Source: Alphaproteobacteria bacterium
GTDB taxonomy: Bacteria > Pseudomonadota > Alphaproteobacteria > Rhodobacterales > Rhodobacteraceae
Direction: 5' to 3'
Length of the DNA stretch: 37,065 bases
NCBI GenBank assembly: GCA_029289325.1
Contig: JARFTV010000029.1
Location: 1-37,065 of the forward strand
Both the position numbers and the translations under genes were made by a program. The notes beneath the pieces were generated by a model, which did no database searches, was not told the origin of the DNA, and saw nothing but the letters and a program-made list of their open reading frames with translations. Positions 3,946-34,487 of the stretch are shown here, in pieces. Every line of letters starts with the position of its first letter. Position 1 is the stretch's first letter.

Positions 3946-3960
3946 GCCGACCCGGCAGGA

Positions 3961-4016
3961 GCGGGGGGTTTCACACCCCCCGCACCCCCCGTGGGATATT
4001 TGTGGAAGAGAAAGCC
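3961..4016 (+). repeat. Gene-end hairpin repeat, copy B
   Basis: An 8-bp hairpin with arms GCGGGGGG (3961-3968) and CCCCCCGC (3976-3983) around the loop TTTCACA is followed by CACCCCCCGTGGGATATTT and GTGGAAGAGAAAGCC. It starts 15 nt after the glutathione transferase stop codon. It is nearly identical to copy C at 4553-4611, which is inverted relative to it. Probably a terminator or 3'-end element. Confidence 0.75.
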
Positions 4017-4552: not shown

Positions 4553-4611
4553 AGCGGCTTTCTCTTCCTGAAATATCCCACGGGGGGTCCGGGGGGTGTG
4601 AAACCCCCCGG
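4553..4611 (-). repeat. Gene-end hairpin repeat, copy C
   Basis: On the minus strand: hairpin arms CCGGGGGG and CCCCCCGG (4604-4611 and 4589-4596) around TTTCACA, then ACCCCCCGTGGGATATTTC and AGGAAGAGAAAGCC. It begins 14 nt past the stop codon of the epimerase gene. With copy B it forms an inverted pair about 540 bp apart. Confidence 0.75.
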
Positions 4612-4624
4612 TCCTCCACCCGCC

Positions 4625-8847: not shown

Positions 8848-9090
8848 CCCGCAGGGACGAGGCAGCGCCGGACGTCCCGCGCGCCGCGGTGGCCATTCCG
8901 GCCCCTGGCCGTCGGGGTTTCGGCCCCGCGCCGTGCCTCAAGCTGGTCCTGAAAACTGCGGGCCAGATGCCCGAGCAGATCCTCCCGGTCGCTGTCCCCG
9001 TAAGCACCGCTTGCCTCGGGGCGCCTCTTCCCCTCCGTGGATTGGGAAGGAGGGCGTTGCGGCCGGGTTAAGAAATCCCTAACAGAAACA

Positions 9091-9139
9091 CCCAAGCTAT
9101 TGAAAACATGGGTGGAACGCTGACTGTCCACCGTGGACA
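9091..9139 (+). repeat. Bipartite palindromic element, copy 1
   Basis: CCCAAGCTATTGAAAAC (9091-9107), exactly 17 nt, then the 15-bp palindrome TGTCCACCGTGGACA (9125-9139), which abuts the stop codon of kpsC. GGTTAAG lies upstream (9066-9072). The same architecture and spacing recur at 26971-27032 and, inverted, at 34326-34387. The 240 bp between the small basic protein and this element hold nothing else I can name. Confidence 0.6.
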
Positions 9140-11158
9140 CTAGCGCCAGATCCAGGCCCACCCGGCCAGAAGCCCCTGCAGCTTTGCCAGTCCCCGGTTG
9201 ACCGGCCCGGCCCCCAGCCCCTCGCCCGAGTCCAGCCGGTCCAGCACCACCTCCACCGGACAGGGCCTCCCCGAGACCGGGTCCCGATAGCGCGGATACT
9301 CGACCAGGGCCGCGTGGACCAGCCGCTCCAGCCCGACCTTCCCCCGCCGGCCCGGCACGGCCGCGAGGTCCCGCGTCAGCCCCCGCCCGGCATAGAAGGG
9401 CGTACCGAGGCAGGTGACCGGCACCCCCCGGACCAGCGCCTCGAAGCCCAGAAGCGAGGTCATGGTCCAGACCTCATCCACCGCCGCCAGCAGCGCCGCC
9501 GGGTCCGCCCGTTCGATCACCAGATCGGCGAGGCCCCCGTCCACGCCCCCCTCCCGCAGTCCCGCCACCACGTCCGGGTGCGGCTTGTAAAGGACCACCG
9601 CCCCCGGGTTCGCCTGCCTCACCGCCTGCAGGAGCCCCAGGTTCGTCCGCACCTTCCCCGCCCCCCGCCGGATCGACGCGTCGTCCTCGACCTGGCCGGG
9701 CACGAGGATGCGGTGACCGGGGGGCAGGGGCGGCAGGGGGGGCGCGGGCAGGTTGTATTTGGAAAAGCCCCCCTCCCGCAGCCGCCCGATCAGGGCCCGC
9801 GCCCGCTCCTCGCCCCCCGGCGGCATCGGCCGGGATAGAAGCCAGTCCAGCCGGGACGGCCGGGTCGGGTCGTAATAGATCCCGCGGTCGTCCGTCACCA
9901 GCGACAGGGGTGGGACCAGCTCGGCCCCCAGACCCCGTGAGCGGAGGAACCCGTCCTCGACGCGAAGGCAGGGGGCCGAGGGGCGAAACCCCTCCGGCTC
10001 CTTCCCTGCCCAGATCAGGAGACCCCGCCCCGAAGCCGCCGCCAGCCGGTCGGCCCGCTCTGCCTCGTTCCGGAAGCGGAGCGGTCCGAAGAACTGCTGC
10101 AGGTGCGGCCGCTTCCAGAGCCGCATCCCGGCTGCCACATGGCCGTTCCGGTCCTCCCGGAAGGCGCGGGTCTCGGCTTCCAGCTGGTCGATCACCTCCT
10201 CCACCTCGCAGAGCCGGTCGCGGCAGGGATCGTACCAGACCGGGGCAAGGATCATTGCCGCGGCGAAGAGCTGTTCGGCGGTCAGCTGGCGGGTACGGCG
10301 GGGCAGGGGGCGGGCGTCCTCGGTCAGGCCCCAGCCGGCATAGAATGGCTGGCCGAAAACCCGGGGGCGGTGGCCATGCAGGATCGCCTCGAACCCCAGT
10401 TGGGACGAGACGGTGTAGACCGCCGCCGCCCCGGCCAGAAGGTGATGCGGCGAGACCGGGTCGGTCAGGAGCCGCACTCGGCCACCGGCATCGGCGGCGG
10501 AGAAATGGCCGCGACGGAGGCCGGCCGAGGTTTCGGGATGGGCGCGGATCAGGATCGGGCGGTCGGGATGATCCTCCAAGGCGGCGGCGAGCATCCGGGG
10601 AAAATCGGCGGCGGTCGCGCCGGAATGGTGGATAGCGGCGTCGCCCTGGGTCTGGTCGACGACAAGGACATAGCCGCTGTCGGGGATAGGGAGGGCTGGA
10701 TCAAAATTGTTGTATTTTGAAAGATGAAGGTGCTTTAGGCGTGACATCGCGACGCTAGCACGATCAAGAATGTTCGAATTCTGCAAGCCGGCGGAGGCCA
10801 GGATCTCCTCCAGCCGCGATGGGGAGGCGCTGTCGAAATGCACGCCGACCGTATCGATCAGCAGGCCGAGCGGCCCCTCACCCGCGGCGCGGCCGGGGTG
10901 GATGGACCGGAGGAAGGCATCCTCGACCCGGATCAGCGGACATCCGCGCCGCGCGGCCACACGCTCGCCACGCCAGGCCGTGGGGCTGCGACCCCAGACG
11001 ACGACGCCATCGCCGGGACCGGGCAGGCCCAGGCGCAACTCATGTCCAAGAAGCTGGAAGATCCGTCGCACCCGCTGATCGCGCGCGAGCGACAGGTTCT
11101 GATGCCAGAGCCGCTGGGGTACTCCGGTCAGTCCGGGGCCCGACCGCTGACCGGACAC
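9140..11158 (-). CDS. kpsC: Capsular polysaccharide Kdo transferase KpsC (two-module)
   Basis: 672 residues. KpsC is a cytoplasmic-face beta-Kdo transferase that works with KpsS to build the poly-Kdo linker on phosphatidylglycerol, the lipid anchor of group 2-type capsules. The protein is an internal duplication: each half has WGRSP or WAGKEP, an RVEDxFLRS segment, a D-SRL segment, SKYN, RAHPE or YKPHPDV, and GxPFYAGxGLT. The open frame runs back to 11287 inside the upstream gene, but that stretch lacks family character. I place the start at GTG 11158, 8 nt past the preceding stop; the Shine-Dalgarno sequence is poor, so the start is uncertain. Third gene of the kpsS - wza-like - kpsC operon. 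Two half-modules of normal length suggest it is intact. Confidence 0.88.
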   Translation of the reverse strand: MSGQRSGPGLTGVPQRLWHQNLSLARDQRVRRIFQLLGHELRLGLPGPGDGVVVWGRSPTAWRGERVAARRGCPLIRVEDAFLRSIHPGRAAGEGPLGLLIDTVGVHFDSASPSRLEEILASAGLQNSNILDRASVAMSRLKHLHLSKYNNFDPALPIPDSGYVLVVDQTQGDAAIHHSGATAADFPRMLAAALEDHPDRPILIRAHPETSAGLRRGHFSAADAGGRVRLLTDPVSPHHLLAGAAAVYTVSSQLGFEAILHGHRPRVFGQPFYAGWGLTEDARPLPRRTRQLTAEQLFAAAMILAPVWYDPCRDRLCEVEEVIDQLEAETRAFREDRNGHVAAGMRLWKRPHLQQFFGPLRFRNEAERADRLAAASGRGLLIWAGKEPEGFRPSAPCLRVEDGFLRSRGLGAELVPPLSLVTDDRGIYYDPTRPSRLDWLLSRPMPPGGEERARALIGRLREGGFSKYNLPAPPLPPLPPGHRILVPGQVEDDASIRRGAGKVRTNLGLLQAVRQANPGAVVLYKPHPDVVAGLREGGVDGGLADLVIERADPAALLAAVDEVWTMTSLLGFEALVRGVPVTCLGTPFYAGRGLTRDLAAVPGRRGKVGLERLVHAALVEYPRYRDPVSGRPCPVEVVLDRLDSGEGLGAGPVNRGLAKLQGLLAGWAWIWR

Positions 11159-11165
11159 GGCGGCG

Positions 11166-12308
11166 TCAGGTGCCGGAATTGGTGGTCGAGGCCAGATTCG
11201 CCGCCGCCCCGGTCGTCCCGGTGATCGCGCCCAGCGTCTTCTGCCACTGCACGAAGGGTGCCTCGGTGACATAAAGTGTGTCGCCATCGCGGATCTGGAA
11301 GTCGCGCGCCTCGAACAGGCCGGTGGGTTCGGTCAAGTTGAGGACATAGACGATCCGCTGGTCGCCGACGAGATCGTTTCGGCCAAGGACAGCGCGGGCG
11401 ATGGCCTCGGTCTCGTCGCGCAGGATGAAGACGCCCTTGGGATCGGCGGAATAGGTCGACAGGCCGCCGACCGTCGCGATAGCCTCAAGCGCGGACATGC
11501 TGGCGCTCTTGAACGGGATCAGGTTCTGCGCCCGGGTGGCGCCGAGGGCCATGAAGCTGCGGCTGTCCGCCTCGATCACGATCTGGTCGCCGGGCCGCAG
11601 GGCGATGTCCAGTGCGGGGTTTTCGTAAAGGTCCTTCAGCCAGATCTTGCCGGTCTGACCGCCACGCGTGAGGCGGACGATGGCAACGGCGGGATCGACC
11701 GTGACGCCGCCGGATTTCGCCAGCATTGCGCCGAGGGTGCGGGTGCCCGGCTCGATCGGGTAGACGCCATTCGCGCCGGCCTGACCCGCGATGGACACGG
11801 TCGCGCCGTCCCCGGCAAGCCGGGTCACGGTGATCTGCGGGTTGGGGGTCTGGTCTTCCAGCTGGCGGGTGATCGCCTGGCGCAGGCCGTCCGGTGTCTG
11901 GCCGGCCGCCTTGATGCGCCCGGCATAGGGAATGTAAATGAAGCCCTGGCCGTCGACCTGGGTTTCCTGCAGCGGCGTGATCCTTTGGCCGGTATTGCCC
12001 AGCAGGGGATCGTCCTTCACGTTCTCGAAGACGGTGATGCCCAGCGTGTCGCCGGGGCTGATCACATCCGATCCGATGAGGCCGGCCTTGCGAAACGCCG
12101 CGCTGAAGCCGAAGACGGGTTGCGCCGCGGTTGCCCTGCTGACGGCGGGGGTCACGGGGACGATGAAGGCATCGCCCTTCTTGTCGACCGAGCCGGCCAT
12201 GATCTCGCGCTTGTTCGGTCCGCTGCGGGGCAGGCCGCAGGACGCCACCAAGGCGACCGAGGCCAGAATCATCATGGCCTTTGCCAGTTTACTGCCAAAC
12301 ACTCGCAC
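11166..12308 (-). CDS. Polysaccharide export outer-membrane lipoprotein (Wza/KpsD-like)
   Basis: 380 residues. A signal peptide with the lipobox LVASC gives an acylated Cys at residue 24. The polysaccharide export domain follows (ISPGDTLGITVFEN, then QVDGQGFIYIPYAGRIKAAG), with SLBB-type repeats (GGVTVDPA, LRPGDQIVIE, GGLSTYSADPKGVFILR, RDGDTLYV). Family members form the outer-membrane channel for capsule export. GTG start at 12308 with AGAGG 7-8 nt upstream. It lies between kpsS (87 bp upstream) and kpsC (7 bp downstream) in one operon. The inner-membrane ABC exporter (KpsMT/E) is not in this window. Confidence 0.88.
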   Translation of the reverse strand: MRVFGSKLAKAMMILASVALVASCGLPRSGPNKREIMAGSVDKKGDAFIVPVTPAVSRATAAQPVFGFSAAFRKAGLIGSDVISPGDTLGITVFENVKDDPLLGNTGQRITPLQETQVDGQGFIYIPYAGRIKAAGQTPDGLRQAITRQLEDQTPNPQITVTRLAGDGATVSIAGQAGANGVYPIEPGTRTLGAMLAKSGGVTVDPAVAIVRLTRGGQTGKIWLKDLYENPALDIALRPGDQIVIEADSRSFMALGATRAQNLIPFKSASMSALEAIATVGGLSTYSADPKGVFILRDETEAIARAVLGRNDLVGDQRIVYVLNLTEPTGLFEARDFQIRDGDTLYVTEAPFVQWQKTLGAITGTTGAAANLASTTNSGT

Positions 12309-14429: not shown

Positions 14430-14480
14430 CCGGAGGGTTTCACACCCTCCGGACCTCCCGTGGGATATTTGTGCAAATGT
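14430..14480 (+). repeat. Gene-end hairpin repeat, copy D
   Basis: Arms CCGGAGGG (14430-14437) and CCCTCCGG (14445-14452) flank the same TTTCACA loop as copies B and C, followed by ACCTCCCGTGGGATATTTG. The arm changes relative to B and C are compensatory, so the hairpin itself is conserved. It lies just past ribE. A second small palindrome (TTTGAGTCAAA within 14485-14504) follows. Confidence 0.75.
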
Positions 14481-23809: not shown

Positions 23810-24892
23810 TTACTCCTTGATCGGGCGCGTGCCCGCGATGGTGAGGTCATAGCCTTCCAGCCCCACCAGCTTGGGCTGGACCGAGTTGGTGACCAGCGTG
23901 ATCGCCGACAGACCCAGCGCAGACAGGATCTGCGCCCCGATGCCGTACTGGCGCAGGGTCTGCGGCGACTGTTCGCCATCCTCGACCATCTTCATCGTCG
24001 TATCGCGCAGCAGCACCACCACCCCGCGCCCCTCGGCCGCGATGATCCGCATGGCGGCCGGCAGGTCGCTGCCCTCGCCCAGGCCCAGCACATCCTCCAG
24101 CGGGTTCAGCGCATGGACGCGCACCAGCACGGGGTCCGGCGTGGACAGGTCGCCCTTGGTCAGCACCACATGATCCGCGCCCTGCAGATCGTCGACAAAG
24201 ACCCGCATCAGCCAGTCGCCGCCATGGATCGAGGTCACGGCCTTCACCGACCGCTCCTGCACCAGATTGTCATGCTTGCGCCGATAGGCGATCAGGTCGC
24301 TGATCGTGCCGATCTTCAGCCCGTGCTTCTGGCCGAACTTGATCAGGTCGGGCAGTCGCGCCATCGTCCCGTCGTCGTTCATCACCTCGCAGATCACGCC
24401 CGACGGGTTCAGCCCCGCCAGCCGCGACACGTCCACCGCCGCTTCGGTATGCCCCGCCCGCACCAGCACGCCGCCGTCGCGGGCGCGCAGCGGGAAGATG
24501 TGACCGGGGCTGGCGATATCCGCCGCCCCCTTGGTGGGATCGGTCGCCACCGCCACGGTCCGCGCCCGGTCGGCGGCCGAGATGCCCGTGGCGATTCCCT
24601 CGACCGCCTCGATCGACAGGGTGAAGGCCGAGGAATGCCGGCTGGAGTTCTTCCGGTCCATCAGCGTCAGACCCAGCTGGTCCACGCGTTCCGCCGTCAG
24701 CGCCAGGCAGATCAGCCCGCGGCCATGGGTGGCCATGAAATTGATCGCCGAGGGCGTGCACATCTGCGCCGGGATCACAAGGTCGCCCTCGTTCTCGCGG
24801 TCCTCGTGATCGACCAGGATGAACATGCGCCCGTTGCGGGCGTCCTCGATGATGTCCTCGATCGAGGAGATGGCGTCGGAGAAGTCGGACAT
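23810..24892 (-). CDS. ribB: 3,4-dihydroxy-2-butanone 4-phosphate synthase with degenerate GTP cyclohydrolase II domain (RibBX type)
   Basis: 360 residues. The N-terminal half (about 1-205) is a complete DHBP synthase, making the four-carbon unit of riboflavin from ribulose 5-phosphate: VDHEDRENEGDLVIPAQ, NFMATHGRGLICLAL, DRKNSSRHSSAFT, and RAGHTEAAVDVSRLAG. The C-terminal half keeps the fold of GTP cyclohydrolase II (YGIGAQILSALGLSAITLVTN, VGLEGYDLTI) but contains no cysteine at all, so the zinc-binding C-x10-C-x-C is gone, and the R-Q-E-G-R-G loop is missing. It should therefore not open GTP; a true RibA must be elsewhere. First gene of the ribB-ribH-nusB operon. I see no FMN riboswitch in the 149-bp upstream spacer. 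Confidence 0.94.
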   Translation of the reverse strand: MSDFSDAISSIEDIIEDARNGRMFILVDHEDRENEGDLVIPAQMCTPSAINFMATHGRGLICLALTAERVDQLGLTLMDRKNSSRHSSAFTLSIEAVEGIATGISAADRARTVAVATDPTKGAADIASPGHIFPLRARDGGVLVRAGHTEAAVDVSRLAGLNPSGVICEVMNDDGTMARLPDLIKFGQKHGLKIGTISDLIAYRRKHDNLVQERSVKAVTSIHGGDWLMRVFVDDLQGADHVVLTKGDLSTPDPVLVRVHALNPLEDVLGLGEGSDLPAAMRIIAAEGRGVVVLLRDTTMKMVEDGEQSPQTLRQYGIGAQILSALGLSAITLVTNSVQPKLVGLEGYDLTIAGTRPIKE

Positions 24893-26955: not shown

Positions 26956-26970
26956 AGATATTGCCCAAAG

Positions 26971-27032
26971 GTTAACGTCCGCGACCAAGGCGTTGATTTC
27001 GTTACGGAAGCCGAATTTGTCCACCGTGGACA
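26971..27032 (+). repeat. Bipartite palindromic element, copy 2
   Basis: GTTAACG, then CCGCGACCAAGGC, GTTGATTTC (26992-27000), exactly 17 nt, then TGTCCACCGTGGACA (27018-27032). It ends 9 nt before the stop codon of the next minus-strand gene. The first 30 bp match copy 3 at about 25 positions and the palindrome equals copy 1. Confidence 0.65.
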
Positions 27033-27041
27033 GATCCGGGA

Positions 27042-30000
27042 TCAGGCCTTCGGCATCTTCAGGCTCAGCAGCCGCCCGCCCTTCTGATAGCGCACCTCGG
27101 TCTCGGTGATCGCCTTGATCGTGCCCCCGTCGATCCGGTCGCCGACCTGCACCTTCTTGTAGCGTCCGTTCGACTGCCGGATCAGAGCATAGCGCCGCGA
27201 ATCCGTGCCATAGGTGCCGATCAGGTTGATCTTCGACAGGTTGATCGCATCCGCGAAGGTCGCCTGTTTGGCGACGTTGGCCCGGGTCGGGATCGAGGGC
27301 GCGGCACTGGCGACCTCGGGCTCGTCCACCTCGTCCAGTTCCTCGGGCTTCAGGTCGGGAACCGCGGCGGGGGCGGGTGCGGCAGCCGCGACTTCCTGGG
27401 GTTCGGGCGCGCGGACGGCGGCGGCGACCGCAGCTTCGACCGCCGAGCTGAAATCGCGGGGACGCGTCGCGGGGCGGCGCGAGATGGCGACGACCGAAGG
27501 GTTCCGGGCCTCCAGCGCCGCGGCTGCGGCCAGTTCTGCCTCGGCCTGAGCGGTCAGCGAGGCGGCCTGGGCCCCAAGGTTGGCCGGCTGGGCGGCGGCC
27601 GCAGCGGCCAGAACGGTCGCCGGCCGGGGCAGGGGGCGCTTGCCGGCAAATTCGGCGACCAGCGCGGGATCGGGGGTCAGGCTGGCCTCGTCATCGGCCG
27701 CATCATCGGCGGCGGGGACAGGGACGGCAAGCGTCTCGGGCCGCGCGCGGGGACGGAAGCCTGCCAGTGCAGGGTCGGCCGGGGCGGGTTCGGCGAGCGC
27801 CTCCGCGGCTGCGGTTTCGGCAGCCGCAATCAGCGAGGCCGCCGCAGCCGTCGCAGGCGCGGGCCCGTCAGCGGTTTCGGCGGCGGGGTCAACGGCCGCG
27901 ACCACCGGCTCGTCCGCCGGGTCCGCCGGGGCAGTCGCCGCGGCGGCCAAGGCGGCGGCAGCTTCGCTGCGCGAGGGCGGGACAAGCGGCGGCGGGCCGG
28001 AAATCAGCAGAACACCCTCCGGGCTGACGATTCCCTCGGGGGTCGGCATCAGAAGGCCGTTTGCATCGAAGCGGTAGACCGTGCCGAAGGCCGGAGGCGG
28101 CATCACCGGGCCGGGGGCGGCATCGGCGGTATCCAGCGGCGCGGGCAGGGCCAGCGCATCCAGCGCCGGGGGCGGGGCGTCCATCGCCGAGAGGAAGATC
28201 TCGTCCTGATCCTCGGCGGGGGCCTGCGCGGCCGTGAGGTCGGTCGAAACCTCGGTCGCGGGGGCAGGCTCGGTCGCGGCCACGGGCGCGGGTTCCACGG
28301 CGGCGAGCGCCACCGGCTCGGGCTCCGGCTCCGGCTCGACCGCTGCGAGATCGACCCCATCCGCGAGGGCCTCATCCTCGGGCAGAGGCTCGGCCGGGTC
28401 GTCGGGGGCCTGCATGTCGGCCAGCATCTCATCCTCGACGCCGGGCATCACGGTATCGGCGTTGAGGGTCCCGGCCAGCTCTGTCTCGGTCGTCGCGTCG
28501 TTCCGGGCGGAGAGATAGTAAGAGGACCACGCGGCGATCAGCGCGAGGAAAAGCAGAAGCAGCGCGACGAGAATGGTGAAGACCATCCCCCCGCGTCTGC
28601 GCGCCGGAGTCGCAGCGCCAAAGGTGCCGCCGGGCCGGGCCGGAGATTTGACGGTGGTCGGACCGGGGCCGACGGGCCGGGGGATCTCGGCGCCGGGCTT
28701 GGCCTTGGGCTTGCCGCGCGTGCCGGGGATCGACGGCGCAGTCACCATGCCCTTGGCGGCGACCGGGCGGGCCGTTGCAGGCGCGGCGGCGCCGAGCTTG
28801 GCGCGGGGCGTCACGTCAGGGCGGGCGACCGGGGGTGCGGCGACGGCGGGAGCGGAGCCTTGGGCGGCGCGGCGGCTGGCGAAGGCCACCATGGCGGCCG
28901 AGGGCGGCTGCGGCGGGATGTCATCGTCAAGTCCAAGCGCCGTGACACTGGTCTTGGGCTCCACCTTGGTCAGGTTGGGTGCCGTGGCCGCGGGGACCGG
29001 AGCCGGTGGGGCCTCATCCTCGGCCAGGCTGTCCGGGACATGGGCGAAGGGGGCTTCCTCGACCTCTTCCGACGCCGGTTCGGCGGCAGGTTCGGGCGCT
29101 TTCGGCGCGGGCGGCTGGGTAAAGAGCTTGCCGCCGGGAAGGTCGTCGCCGAGGTCGTCTTCGGCCGGGGCCGGTTCCTCGGGCTCCTGGGCCACCGGCG
29201 CGGCGGCCGGTTCAGGCGCGGGCAGGTCGGCGTTCAGGGCCTCTTCCAGACCGGGCAGCGTATCGTCCTCGGGCCTGATGGTCGCGACCGGCGCTGGATC
29301 GGTGGCGGTAGGCTGGGGGGCAGGCTCTGGTTCCAGCTCCGGTTCGGGTGCCGGTTCCGGCTCAGGCTCCAGTTCAGGCTCGGGGATGGACTGCGGCAGC
29401 GGTTCCGGCTCGGGGGGTGGCGCTTCGGCCGCGGGTTCCGGCAAGGGTTCGGGCACGGGTTCAGGCGCAGCCTCCACGACCGGAGGCGGCGCTGCGGCGG
29501 GCAGGTCGCGCTGCAGGATCGTGACCGGCTCGCGATCCTTTTCCATCGATTCGCCGGCGGCCAGAAGGGTGGCGGCGGCCTGGGTCGGGCCGAAGAAGGG
29601 TTCGCCCACGAAGGCCCCGCTTTCGGGCACGGCGACGAAACCCACCGGGTTCAGCTTGTGCTGGACGGCGAAGGCCTCGGCCTCATCCAGTGTTTCGCGC
29701 GCCACGACGGCGACCTTGACCGTCGCGCCCTTGCCGGACCAGTCGAAGACCAGATCGGACACGTCATAGGGCGTCTTGCCCTCCAGCGCCTCGGCGATCT
29801 GGCGGCGCTTGTCCTCGCGGCTGGGGCCGGGAGCATTCACTTCGGTGTATAGGATCTGGCTGTTCGGCAGCACGATCTTGCTGGCCAGCCCCTGAGGCGA
29901 AAGACCTAGCGCCGTCTTGCGCAGATAGGCCAGCGCCTCGTCCAGGTCGGGGGCGTCGAAAGCCACCTCTCCCAATGGGATCCAACCCTTCGGGGTCCGA

Positions 30001-30053
30001 TGCAGAAGCCCCACGACGTCGCGGGTCAGATCAAGTGCGAAAGTCGGTTTCAT
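27042..30053 (-). CDS. Large bitopic membrane protein: PilM/GspL-like N-terminus, PilP/GspC-like C-terminus
   Basis: 1003 residues. Residues 1-170 resemble the actin-like cytoplasmic part of PilM/GspL (FALDLTRDVVGLLHRTPKGW, SKIVLPNSQILYTEVNAPG, KTPYDVSDLVFDW). Residues about 185-480 are a Pro/Glu/Ala-rich linker with repeats of the type PEPEPEP, becoming basic just before the membrane (ARRRGG). One transmembrane helix lies at about 487-510 (MVFTILVALLLLFLALIAAW). A second Ala/Pro-rich linker runs to about 915. The last 75 residues form a small beta domain like PilP/GspC (INLIGTYGTDSRRYALIRQ, KVQVGDRIDGGTIKAITETEVRY). It spans the inner membrane with the C-terminus in the periplasm. No pilus or type II secretion genes adjoin. 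The domain likenesses are from pattern recognition and need a profile search. The opposite strand has long open frames that are shadows. Confidence 0.82.
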   Translation of the reverse strand: MKPTFALDLTRDVVGLLHRTPKGWIPLGEVAFDAPDLDEALAYLRKTALGLSPQGLASKIVLPNSQILYTEVNAPGPSREDKRRQIAEALEGKTPYDVSDLVFDWSGKGATVKVAVVARETLDEAEAFAVQHKLNPVGFVAVPESGAFVGEPFFGPTQAAATLLAAGESMEKDREPVTILQRDLPAAAPPPVVEAAPEPVPEPLPEPAAEAPPPEPEPLPQSIPEPELEPEPEPAPEPELEPEPAPQPTATDPAPVATIRPEDDTLPGLEEALNADLPAPEPAAAPVAQEPEEPAPAEDDLGDDLPGGKLFTQPPAPKAPEPAAEPASEEVEEAPFAHVPDSLAEDEAPPAPVPAATAPNLTKVEPKTSVTALGLDDDIPPQPPSAAMVAFASRRAAQGSAPAVAAPPVARPDVTPRAKLGAAAPATARPVAAKGMVTAPSIPGTRGKPKAKPGAEIPRPVGPGPTTVKSPARPGGTFGAATPARRRGGMVFTILVALLLLFLALIAAWSSYYLSARNDATTETELAGTLNADTVMPGVEDEMLADMQAPDDPAEPLPEDEALADGVDLAAVEPEPEPEPVALAAVEPAPVAATEPAPATEVSTDLTAAQAPAEDQDEIFLSAMDAPPPALDALALPAPLDTADAAPGPVMPPPAFGTVYRFDANGLLMPTPEGIVSPEGVLLISGPPPLVPPSRSEAAAALAAAATAPADPADEPVVAAVDPAAETADGPAPATAAAASLIAAAETAAAEALAEPAPADPALAGFRPRARPETLAVPVPAADDAADDEASLTPDPALVAEFAGKRPLPRPATVLAAAAAAQPANLGAQAASLTAQAEAELAAAAALEARNPSVVAISRRPATRPRDFSSAVEAAVAAAVRAPEPQEVAAAAPAPAAVPDLKPEELDEVDEPEVASAAPSIPTRANVAKQATFADAINLSKINLIGTYGTDSRRYALIRQSNGRYKKVQVGDRIDGGTIKAITETEVRYQKGGRLLSLKMPKA

Positions 30054-32974: not shown

Positions 32975-34264
32975 TCAGGCCGTGGCCTTCGCCAGCGCCT
33001 GGTCGAGATCGGCGATGATGTCGCGGACATCTTCGATCCCGATCGAGACGCGCACCGAATCCGGCGCTGCCCCTGCCTTGACCTGAGCGTCCTCCGACAG
33101 CTGCCGGTGGGTGGTGGAGGCCGGATGGATGATCAGCGACCGCGTGTCGCCGAGGTTCGCGACATGGGAGAAGAGCTTCACGTTGTCGATGAGCTTGACG
33201 CAGGACTCATAGCCGCCCTTCACCGTGAAGGTGAACAGCGCCCCCGGCCCCTTGGGCGTGATCATCTTGGCGAGGTTGTGGTAGGGCGAGGATTTGAGCC
33301 CCGGATAGGTGACCTTGCCGATCCGCGGATCCTGCTCCAGCCATTCCGCCACGATCTGCGCGTTCTCGACATGGCGCTGCATCCGCAGGGCCAGGGTCTC
33401 GATCCCCATCAGCGTGTAATGCGCGCCTTGGGGGTTCATCGTCATCCCAAGGTCGCGCAGCCCGATGGCGATGGAATGGAAGGTGAAAGCCATGTTGCCC
33501 AAGGTCGGGTGGAAGACGAGACCATGGTAGGCGGGTTCGGGCTGGCTGAGCGAGGGGAACTTGTCCGAGGCGGACCAATCGAAGGTGCCGGAATCGACCA
33601 CGATCCCGCCGGTGACGGTGCCGTTCCCGGTCAGGTATTTGGTGGCCGAATGGACGACGAGGGTCGCGCCATGTTCGATCGGGCGGCAGAGGTAGGGGCT
33701 GGCGGTCGTGTTGTCGACGATCAGCGGGATGCCGGCCTGGTTCGCCACGCGGGCGATGGCGGGCAGGTCGGAGAGTGCGCCGCCGGGGTTGCAGATCGTC
33801 TCGCAGAACAGCGCCCGGGTGTCGTCATCGATGGCGGCGGCGATGGCCTTGGGGTCGTCGAAATCGACGAACTTCGCCGACCAGCCGAACTTGCGGATCG
33901 TGTTCGAGAACTGCTGGATCGTGCCGCCGTAAAGCTTGGTCGAGGCCACGATGTTGCGTCCCGGCTGCATGAGCGGGAAGAGCGCCATGATCTGCGCCGC
34001 ATGGCCCGAGGAGCAGGCGATGCCGCCCGCGCCGCCTTCCAGCGCGACGACCCGGTTCGCGAGCGCGGATACGGTCGGGTTCGTCAGGCGGGAGTAGATG
34101 TAGCCCACCTCTTGCAGGTTGAAGAGCTTGGCGGCGTGGTCGGCGTCGCGGAAGACGAAGGCGGTCGACTGGTAGATCGGGATCTGCCGGGCGCCGGTGG
34201 CGGGGTCCGGTTCGGCACCGGCGTGGATGGCGAGCGTCTCGAAGCCGAGGGGTCTGTCGGTCAT
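32975..34264 (-). CDS. metY: O-acetylhomoserine sulfhydrylase (aminocarboxypropyltransferase)
   Basis: 429 residues, a PLP enzyme of the Cys/Met metabolism family that makes homocysteine from O-acetylhomoserine and sulfide. It opens GFETLAIHAGAEPDPATGAR, has YSRLTNPT, LVVHSATKYLTGNGTVTGG with the PLP lysine K209, and the C-terminal NLGDTRSLIIHPASTTH typical of MetY rather than MetB or MetZ proper. GGAGG lies 5 nt upstream of the ATG at 34264; the frame stays open to 34471 without coding character. Copy 3 of the bipartite element lies about 60-120 bp upstream and may be its operator. Confidence 0.93.
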   Translation of the reverse strand: MTDRPLGFETLAIHAGAEPDPATGARQIPIYQSTAFVFRDADHAAKLFNLQEVGYIYSRLTNPTVSALANRVVALEGGAGGIACSSGHAAQIMALFPLMQPGRNIVASTKLYGGTIQQFSNTIRKFGWSAKFVDFDDPKAIAAAIDDDTRALFCETICNPGGALSDLPAIARVANQAGIPLIVDNTTASPYLCRPIEHGATLVVHSATKYLTGNGTVTGGIVVDSGTFDWSASDKFPSLSQPEPAYHGLVFHPTLGNMAFTFHSIAIGLRDLGMTMNPQGAHYTLMGIETLALRMQRHVENAQIVAEWLEQDPRIGKVTYPGLKSSPYHNLAKMITPKGPGALFTFTVKGGYESCVKLIDNVKLFSHVANLGDTRSLIIHPASTTHRQLSEDAQVKAGAAPDSVRVSIGIEDVRDIIADLDQALAKATA

Positions 34265-34325: not shown

Positions 34326-34387
34326 TGTCCACGCTGGACACGCGGGCCAACGATAGGGAAATCAACAGCTTGGCCGCGGCCGTTTAC
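34326..34387 (-). repeat. Bipartite palindromic element, copy 3 (upstream of metY)
   Basis: On the minus strand: GTAAACG, then GCCGCGGCCAAGCT, GTTGATTTC (34366-34358), exactly 17 nt, then TGTCCAGCGTGGACA (34340-34326), flanked by G and C to make a 17-bp palindrome. The palindrome ends 61 nt upstream of the metY ATG, in the spacer metY shares with the divergent VOC gene, so it could act as an operator for either. Confidence 0.65.
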
Positions 34388-34487
34388 AGAATATTTATCC
34401 CTTCCGGCGGGGTTTCTGAGGAGGATCGTTGCGGGGCCAAGGGCTTGTGTGCTTGGATCAAGCGGTCTCAACCCGGAGCCCGAAGCG

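Follow-up and report, generated by a model that had tools for sequence, protein, structure and literature searches.

The 37,065-nucleotide stretch of Rhodobacteraceae DNA analysed here (the window) carries, on its minus strand, a Capsule_synth gene (9140-11287; PF05159; named kpsC by the earlier reader), a gene for a 1003-aa protein with a sub-threshold match to PilP (27042-30053), and metY (32975-34264), each of which has a copy of a repeated element beside it. An earlier note on this sequence had placed three copies of the element at 9091-9139 (+), 26971-27032 (+) and 34326-34387 (-), and they read as described: in all three, CCAAG-N2 and a 9-mer (ATTGAAAAC, GTTGATTTC and GTTGATTTC, respectively) are followed by exactly 17 nt and then by a palindrome, which is TGTCCACCGTGGACA in copies 1 and 2 and TGTCCAGCGTGGACA in copy 3. 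Their positions next to the genes also agree with that description, copy 1 abutting the stop codon of the Capsule_synth gene, copy 2 lying close to the stop codon of the 1003-aa reading frame, and copy 3 being located upstream of metY. The exact palindrome TGTCCAN3TGGACA is present in the window in these three copies only, and allowing up to two mismatches yields four matches against 0.77 expected. The outline drawn earlier was nevertheless too short, as the true unit measures approximately 77 bp and extends from -62 to +14 relative to the start of the palindrome; the 30 matching bases seen ahead of copies 2 and 3 are indeed alike, but are part of this unit rather than separate from the element. 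The features are as follows.

9063-9139, plus strand: copy 1, whole unit (scaffold and palindrome); match of model R1 at C86:9066-9140, E 2.5e-13
9068-9084, plus strand: left box TTAAGAAATCCCTAACA of copy 1, at matrix positions -57 to -41
9093-9105, plus strand: IHF-like core of copy 1, placed by eye, with one mismatch to WATCAANNNNTTR on the minus strand
9125-9139, no strand: palindrome TGTCCACCGTGGACA of copy 1, its last base directly before the stop codon of 9140-11287 (-)
26956-27032, plus strand: copy 2, whole unit; match of model R1 at C86:26955-27034, E 2.5e-17
26961-26977, plus strand: left box TTGCCCAAAGGTTAACG of copy 2, from the sequence and the matrix
26986-26998, minus strand: exact IHF consensus WATCAANNNNTTR in copy 2, from a consensus search of the window
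27018-27032, no strand: palindrome TGTCCACCGTGGACA of copy 2, 9 nt from the stop codon of 27042-30053 (-)
34326-34402, minus strand: copy 3, whole unit; match of model R1 at C86:34325-34399 (-), E 2.8e-12
34360-34372, plus strand: exact IHF consensus WATCAANNNNTTR in copy 3, from a consensus search of the window
34326-34340, no strand: palindrome TGTCCAGCGTGGACA of copy 3, as read on the minus strand in the sequence

The window also contains a second dispersed repeat, GGGTTTCACACCC...CCCGTGGGATATTTGTG, at 3957-4016, 4556-4615 and 14430-14476, the copies of which are 89-93% alike; two of them are inverted and 539 nt apart, and the third is 10 kb off. In addition, an Rfam V_AS9 match at 24678-24777 (L064:661-760, +) reached 48.2 bits, the gathering score being 50.

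The exact palindrome TGTCCAN3TGGACA occurs 73 times in the 4.17-Mb genome against 0.11 expected from base composition, while its backwards control is absent from the genome; read with the pyrimidine centre, 31 copies are on the plus strand and 42 on the minus strand. All 73 copies, with flanks of up to 3 kb, were lined up on the palindrome; there were 74 rows, two sites having been read twice, and a 65-row matrix was obtained by omitting nine rows whose score at the fixed offset did not reach 4. The scaffold is visible by eye in a slightly different register or orientation in L020, L039, L052, L053 and L073, L019 is cut by a contig end, and L076, which is among the 65 rows, is in the wrong orientation and slightly dilutes the sequence-only model R1 that was built from these aligned copies. 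R1 matched this genome 99 times at E<=0.01 and 93 times at E<=0.001, over many contigs, and the family is accordingly counted here as some 93 copies, including the 73 with the exact palindrome. In the 65 aligned copies the unit has sharp edges at -62 and +14, with little conservation beyond +15, and consists of TT(A/G/T)(A/C)(C/G)A at -57, (T/C)NAACG at -46, a CCCGCG-like stretch at -39, CAA at -32, TTGAWWT at -25, a weakly conserved spacer, and the palindrome at 0-14. The earlier note had argued from the constant spacing for a protein-binding site, and this proposal is strongly supported, the exact palindrome being far from chance frequency and the 17-nt spacing being kept in 65 copies within the fixed register used.

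Neighbouring genes were called with a home-made codon-score finder, which allowed 69 sites to be classed: 32 are located between convergent genes, 19 and 14 in tandem pairs of the two orientations, and 4 between divergent genes. The palindrome end lies at a median of 3 and 4 nt from a stop codon (51 sites), and at a median of 61.5 nt from a start codon in the 14 tandem sites of the other orientation, while the medians from the left end to the neighbouring gene are 86-130 nt. Orientation in tandem pairs is unbiased (19 vs 14, p 0.49), and the role of the element can therefore not simply be tied to transcription of the gene on its right. The occurrence of both orientations, together with the lack of any -10-like sequence by eye, leaves the antisense promoters that had been considered earlier unsupported, and a promoter reading of TTGATT-N17 was rejected likewise, as no -10 box could be recognised by eye. 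A left-hand terminator was rejected as a constant part of the unit, the median hairpin score being 16 vs 15 in controls; strong hairpins were found left of the element in 9% of cases vs 2% in controls. At locus L077 the stop codon of an efp-like gene is followed by the element and then by a hairpin that, with its runs of A and T, resembles an intrinsic terminator in both directions. Neighbour names such as efp and hisS are our own reading of the sequences.

The middle of the unit contains CAA-N4-TTGA, which is the reverse complement of the IHF core (consensus WATCAANNNNTTR). It is present in 36 of the 65 aligned copies, and the full YAAN4TTGATW in 23, whereas the exact consensus occurs in the window in copies 2 and 3 only (2 vs 0.10 expected). 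This middle module is therefore read as an IHF-like site, to which, judging from the match to the consensus, IHF is likely to bind. In some relatives (L120, L127, L308 and L307) the IHF-like core is itself half of a nearly perfect palindrome, for example CCAAGCCATTGAAATCAAAGGCTTGG, of which it makes up the left side; in this genome that left half alone is well kept. The left box resembles the CtrA consensus, TTAA-N7-TTAAC; a CtrA box was rejected, since the full consensus is found in 2 of the 65 copies and TTAA-N7-NTAAC in 20, and TTTCC and TTGCC variants are common. Across 230 distinct matches no helix-like covariation was detected in the left and middle parts, the largest Watson-Crick excess (0.15) belonging to a pair at the palindrome edge, and this speaks for sites that are bound by proteins as double-stranded DNA. 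An RNA element also appears improbable: structure prediction gave the palindrome hairpin alone, without covariation, the palindrome being fixed by the selection of copies.

Searches with R1 at E<=0.01 found the element in all 32 genomes of the genus, which is Tabrizicola judging by its named neighbours, with at least 39 copies in 26 of these and 1-28 in the other six; G022 has 121 copies at E<=1e-3. Several other genera of the Rhodobacteraceae also carry the element, scaffold matches being present in 8 of 148 other genera. Six genomes of the genus have no exact TGTCCAN3TGGACA, among them G001, G021, G012 and G007, which have 45-115 copies in which the left part is unchanged and the palindrome is different. 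The palindrome is GTCCC...GGGAC in all 7 copies read in G007 and GCGTCCGAGCTCGGACGC in all 6 read in G089, whereas those of G001 and G021 are mixed: GCGCCGCGCGCGGCGC accounts for 11 of 23 copies in G001, and among 15 in G021 this form was seen in 3 and TGNCCRCGCGYGGNCA in 8. Palindromes in other genera include GTCCCAYGCRTGGGAC (G095), GTCCCATCGTGGGAC (G203), GTGTCCCATCGTGGGACAC (G123), and both TGTCCCATCGTGGGACA and TGTCCCACCGTGGGACA (G102), besides others. The palindrome centre falls 6.5-8.0 from the scaffold zero in the measured copies of G089, G095 (2 of 3), G102, G203, G123, G103 and G077, the scaffolds at L176, L178 and L196 in this survey being low-scoring and possibly mis-registered and L191 and L186 giving no palindrome. 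G190, which has the candidate protein X described below, is an exception, with an apparent palindrome that is shorter and off-centre (3.5-4.5 from the scaffold point); a good palindrome was not found in one copy of G095 and one of G190.

Upstream of metY, the start of which was recovered in 11 of 30 loci, the element is present in 10 of the 11 genomes read (nine besides our own; G026 is without it), with a palindrome that varies by species. Outside the genus, inspection of 80 named loci by eye showed the whole element upstream of metY in L202 and L204, and its left part alone in L203 and L206. More generally, 33 of 69 sites of relatives fall at a place that also holds a site in our genome; in 26 cases the right flank establishes the correspondence, and the offset does not exceed 12 nt there. 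This count took 69 of 72 loci, the script having shown no site in the others, and some of the other 7 cases depend on short left-flank matches. Many copies are thus old. Between species, moreover, palindromes at unlinked sites have changed jointly and for the most part in step, for which a protein acting in trans, with a specificity that itself changes, is needed.

A candidate for such a factor, here called X, was found by searching the genus for the ParB N-terminal domain; it is a second such protein in addition to the canonical ParB, and is encoded outside the window.

C3:54953-55771 of this genome: 273-aa reading frame of X

X scored 30.5 bits with Pfam ParB_N (PF02195; cut-off 26.3) and 55.2 with NCBIfam parB_part, just below the cut-off of 58.45, and its closest sequences in the PDB are those of Noc (4e-7). 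An AlphaFold2 model of moderate quality (mean pLDDT 76, pTM 0.56) gave Noc (E 5.6e-8), ParB and KorB as best folds in Foldseek, with low TM-scores of 0.25-0.54 over long matches. The GxRR and ENxxR residues (G64, R66, R67, E99, N100 and R103) are invariant in 18 X orthologues. A ParA P-loop motif is found beside canonical parB in 29 of 29 loci and beside X in 0 of 29 (up to 1.5 kb on each side, less in three), so that X lacks the neighbouring parA of a ParABS partition system. The model leaves no room for an N-terminal membrane helix, as its first strand is at residues 4-8; in G005, G011, G001, G021 and G020 the open frame upstream of the X start could add no more than about 14 residues. Where this can be judged, X is located on chromosome-sized contigs (G007:C1, 4.19 Mb; G022:C1, 1.8 Mb), and in five genomes (G000, G005, G021, G022 and G024) its gene is approximately 2 kb from a copy of the element, which in this genome precedes the gene that we read as hisS. 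By its sequence and modelled fold, X is an orphan protein of the ParB/Noc/KorB superfamily with a ParB/Noc fold, and it is a candidate for binding the palindrome. Many plasmids of the Rhodobacteraceae also carry relatives of X; weaker relatives were found on 435 plasmid records, with at most 39.9% identity among the 15 matches listed, and several genomes of the genus (L411, L415, L416 and L417) encode another ParB_N protein of approximately 361-366 aa that is 31-37% identical to X.

X is present at full length in 19 of the 32 genomes of the genus. It is absent from all six site-poor genomes (G002, G026, G014, G027, G003 and G029) and present in 19 of the other 26 (Fisher p 0.0019); among genomes that are at least 90% complete it is found in 0 of 5 site-poor ones vs 16 of 20 others (p 0.0024), the cut of fewer than 39 sites having been chosen after the counts were known and both tests ignoring phylogeny. 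A rank test without a cut, which likewise ignores phylogeny and in which G018 was counted as X-bearing, gave p 0.003; in G018 the X start is at a contig end. The copy of X in G015 (L410) is broken by an internal deletion and a frame change, and that of G013 (L412) is a C-terminal fragment behind unrelated sequence, yet G013 has 26 exact palindromes and 39 model matches. No X was found in G006, G008, G012 and G017. Of these, G008 has 129 sites (79 exact) and G017 has 84 (63 exact), which contradicts a rule that couples X to sites, unless, as is possible, the assemblies miss the gene. The 11 copies read in G012 have mixed and badly paired palindromes, as expected after loss of X. Few exact strings were found despite X in G004 (3), G010 (1), G031 (8) and G019 (7), and none in G001, G007 and G021. 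Loss of the exact palindrome was accordingly rejected as a mark of X loss, X-bearing genomes with another or a mixed palindrome also having few, and the argument is applied to G012 alone, the copies of which were read.

Among the 148 other genera, relatives of X scoring at least 265 bits are found in five, four of which are among the eight scaffold genera (p 1.8e-5); at 230 bits there are ten such genera, with an overlap of four (p 7e-4), where both cut-offs were chosen after seeing the match list and both tests ignore phylogeny. The fifth strong-X genus, G102, has two copies of scaffold and palindrome in the 122 kb read, and G156, with a relative of X at 251 bits, has no element in the 200 kb read. 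G103 (99% complete) combines the scaffold and a good palindrome with a weak X homologue (116 bits), and G077, G083 and G123 (76-86% complete) have scaffold matches and no X match at E<=1e-10. Any X match at that threshold is found in 65 of the 148 genera, many of them of plasmid type, and in 5 of the 8 scaffold genera; it is therefore the strong matches that carry the genus-level link.

The helix region of X also varies with the palindrome. The form R-T-(T/S)-R-(S/T)-RIRNHVSV accompanies TGTCCACCGTGGACA, KSSHRRLRAHATV accompanies the GCGCC/TGNCC mixture of G001 and G021, and RQ(T/K/A)... accompanies GTCCC.. (G007, G102, G095 and G203) and GTCCG (G089). This link is suggestive and falls short of a code because G020 (RTSRLRLRAHVQV) and G023 (RSSRQRLRAYANV) keep TGTCCA-type sites, with 29 and 51 exact copies, respectively, despite other helix residues. 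The difference in specificity between ParB and Noc is described as involving four interface residues (PMC7383237).

Considering the co-occurrence and the accompanying changes, X very likely binds the palindrome. The reading that we favour, and consider probable as a whole, is that each copy is a composite DNA-protein site and that the copies together form an IHF-assisted, Noc-like network of loading sites for ParB-type clamps. X would nucleate on the palindrome, and IHF would bend the CAA-N4-TTGA core, so that the TTAA...AACG box and a factor presumed to bind it would approach, at a fixed distance, the palindrome occupied by X. If it behaves as Noc and ParB do, X would then quite plausibly load at the palindrome as a CTP-dependent sliding clamp, and the resulting hundred or so nucleoprotein complexes over the genome would serve nucleoid organisation or its coordination with division. 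The chromosome-organising site is also the one among the three options of the earlier note that fits best. The regularity of site spacing varies: the 38 exact sites on contig C1 of G016 are more even than expected by chance, with a cv of 0.52 that is lower than in any of 20,000 simulations, and evenness is seen in G024 (C1, p 0.03; C2, p 0.009), whereas C5 and C6 of G016 (p 0.53 and 0.10) and the full G022 set (p 0.10, 0.31 and 0.48) do not show it, and top-scoring subsets of G022 range from p 0.03 to 0.51. Even spacing is thus suggested in some contigs and absent from others. In G022 the longest stretches without a site measure 125-151 kb, and a signal for the direction of replication was set aside because the strands of the sites there look mixed on inspection.

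A role at the scale of the chromosome appears slightly favoured over local gene control. Under the latter, X with IHF would be a clamp of the KorB or VirB type with an effect on the neighbouring gene, be it silencing, insulation or a roadblock; although unlikely, this is the most probable of the alternatives. Both of those proteins are ParB-fold regulators, and the palindromes hug stop codons or sit some 60 nt before start codons; this hugging of stop codons and promoters on the palindrome side is left unaccounted for by the model of X and IHF. On the other hand, the promoter-side genes are by eye mixed housekeeping genes, most copies are at gene ends, and the unbiased tandem orientation does not suit local control either.

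Slightly less likely is the binding of the palindrome by another dimeric regulator, the presence of X being only a matter of shared lineage history, as could be argued from the good palindromes without strong X in G008, G017, G103 and G123 and from co-occurrence statistics that ignore phylogeny. The comparisons within the genus and between genera both point to X instead, and the copies of G012, which lacks X, are mixed, with pairing of the palindrome arms close to expectation (4, 8 and 7 vs 3.9, 6.8 and 6.7 in the 11 copies read). Moreover, ParB and Noc, members of the same family, are described as binding 16-bp palindromes (PMC7383237, PMC8429893).

It is improbable that the copies are functionless remnants of a MITE- or REP-like mobile repeat that spread in the distant past. 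Their number and mostly convergent or tandem intergenic placement, where classed, would suit such an origin, and like placement has been described for the RIB repeats of Escherichia coli (in a paper cited by PMC12306157), but the modules are conserved while the spacer is weakly so, nearly half of the relatives' sites compared are at orthologous places, and the unlinked palindromes of G089 and G007 agree among themselves and differ from those of our genome. The many orthologous places between species also make the recombination site that the earlier note had considered less likely.

Least probable is an RNA hairpin, a 3'-UTR stabiliser or a terminator, following the stop codon. The short distance to stop codons would be expected of it, arm pairing exceeds expectation over mixed-species rows (116, 140 and 126 vs 71, 99 and 86 in the 159 of 168 rows taken), and at L077 the efp-like transcript would traverse the element before reaching the terminator-like hairpin. 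The palindrome nevertheless faces a gene start in 14 + 4 sites, outside the 3' UTR of that gene, no T-run follows it in the copies read, G021 and G001 have hybrid half-sites, and within G012 there is little or no excess pairing. Within a genome, furthermore, the copies tend towards a common sequence, although pairing alone would not require this. Rfam searches found no family that reached its gathering score in the window, and in 10 loci nothing matched the element.

Returning to the X-bound, IHF-assisted sites, four exact palindrome strings matched no paper, and none of the papers listed in the literature searches appeared to describe the element; if this reading holds, the system would be a chromosome-organising one that is so far undescribed there. 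An orphan ParB paired with probable sites genome-wide makes the role of that protein testable at once. With so many unlinked palindromes differing from species to species, the family would offer a natural record of protein-site co-evolution on an unusually large scale, and the composite of an IHF site and a ParB-type palindrome raises the question whether IHF helps to load or to confine ParB-type clamps. It is conceivable, though speculative, that the Rhodobacteraceae possess a chromosome-wide network of ParB-type clamps, perhaps the first such system of nucleoid occlusion or layout in the Alphaproteobacteria, with about a hundred polar stations in which an X palindrome and an IHF bend are joined by a third box whose bound factor could block clamp sliding on one side, and that the specificity of the protein and of its unlinked sites has been re-coded jointly more than once.

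Among known systems, the RIBs of E. coli carry REP sequences. RIB/RIP elements (BIME-1), described as repeats that carry IHF sites and lie at the 3' end of transcription units (in a paper cited by PMC12306157), resemble the present family in being repeated and having IHF-type sites; the element described here, in contrast, has a palindrome of its own that varies by species and for which a ParB-fold protein is the candidate partner. KorB is among the fold matches of X, and KorB and VirB are described as ParB-fold, CTP-dependent proteins in gene regulation (PMC12704722), but KorB (RK2) and VirB (pINV) are plasmid-borne regulators, whereas X is on chromosome-sized contigs and has about a hundred sites. 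Canonical ParB shares its N-terminal domain and motif residues with X, and parS is a palindrome of similar size; the two differ in the ParA motif, beside parB in every locus and beside X in none, and in that parS is described as lying near the origin while the sites of X, approximately 93, are spread over many contigs. Orphan ParB proteins have been reported to be common and to occur in a wide range of taxa (PMC12704722), and Noc has been reported as restricted to Firmicutes (PMC7383237). Noc has an N-terminal amphipathic helix (PMC8429893) that X lacks, its binding sites (NBS), some 70 palindromes of 16 bp around the chromosome of Bacillus subtilis (PMC8429893, PMC4331003), differ in sequence from the sites of X, which change between species, and the descriptions of Noc consulted present NBS without a composite with an IHF-like site such as that seen here. 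With these differences, Noc and its sites are shared ground in three respects: the ParB fold, the best sequence and fold matches of X, and tens of palindromes dispersed over the genome (93 in our own, 121 in G022).
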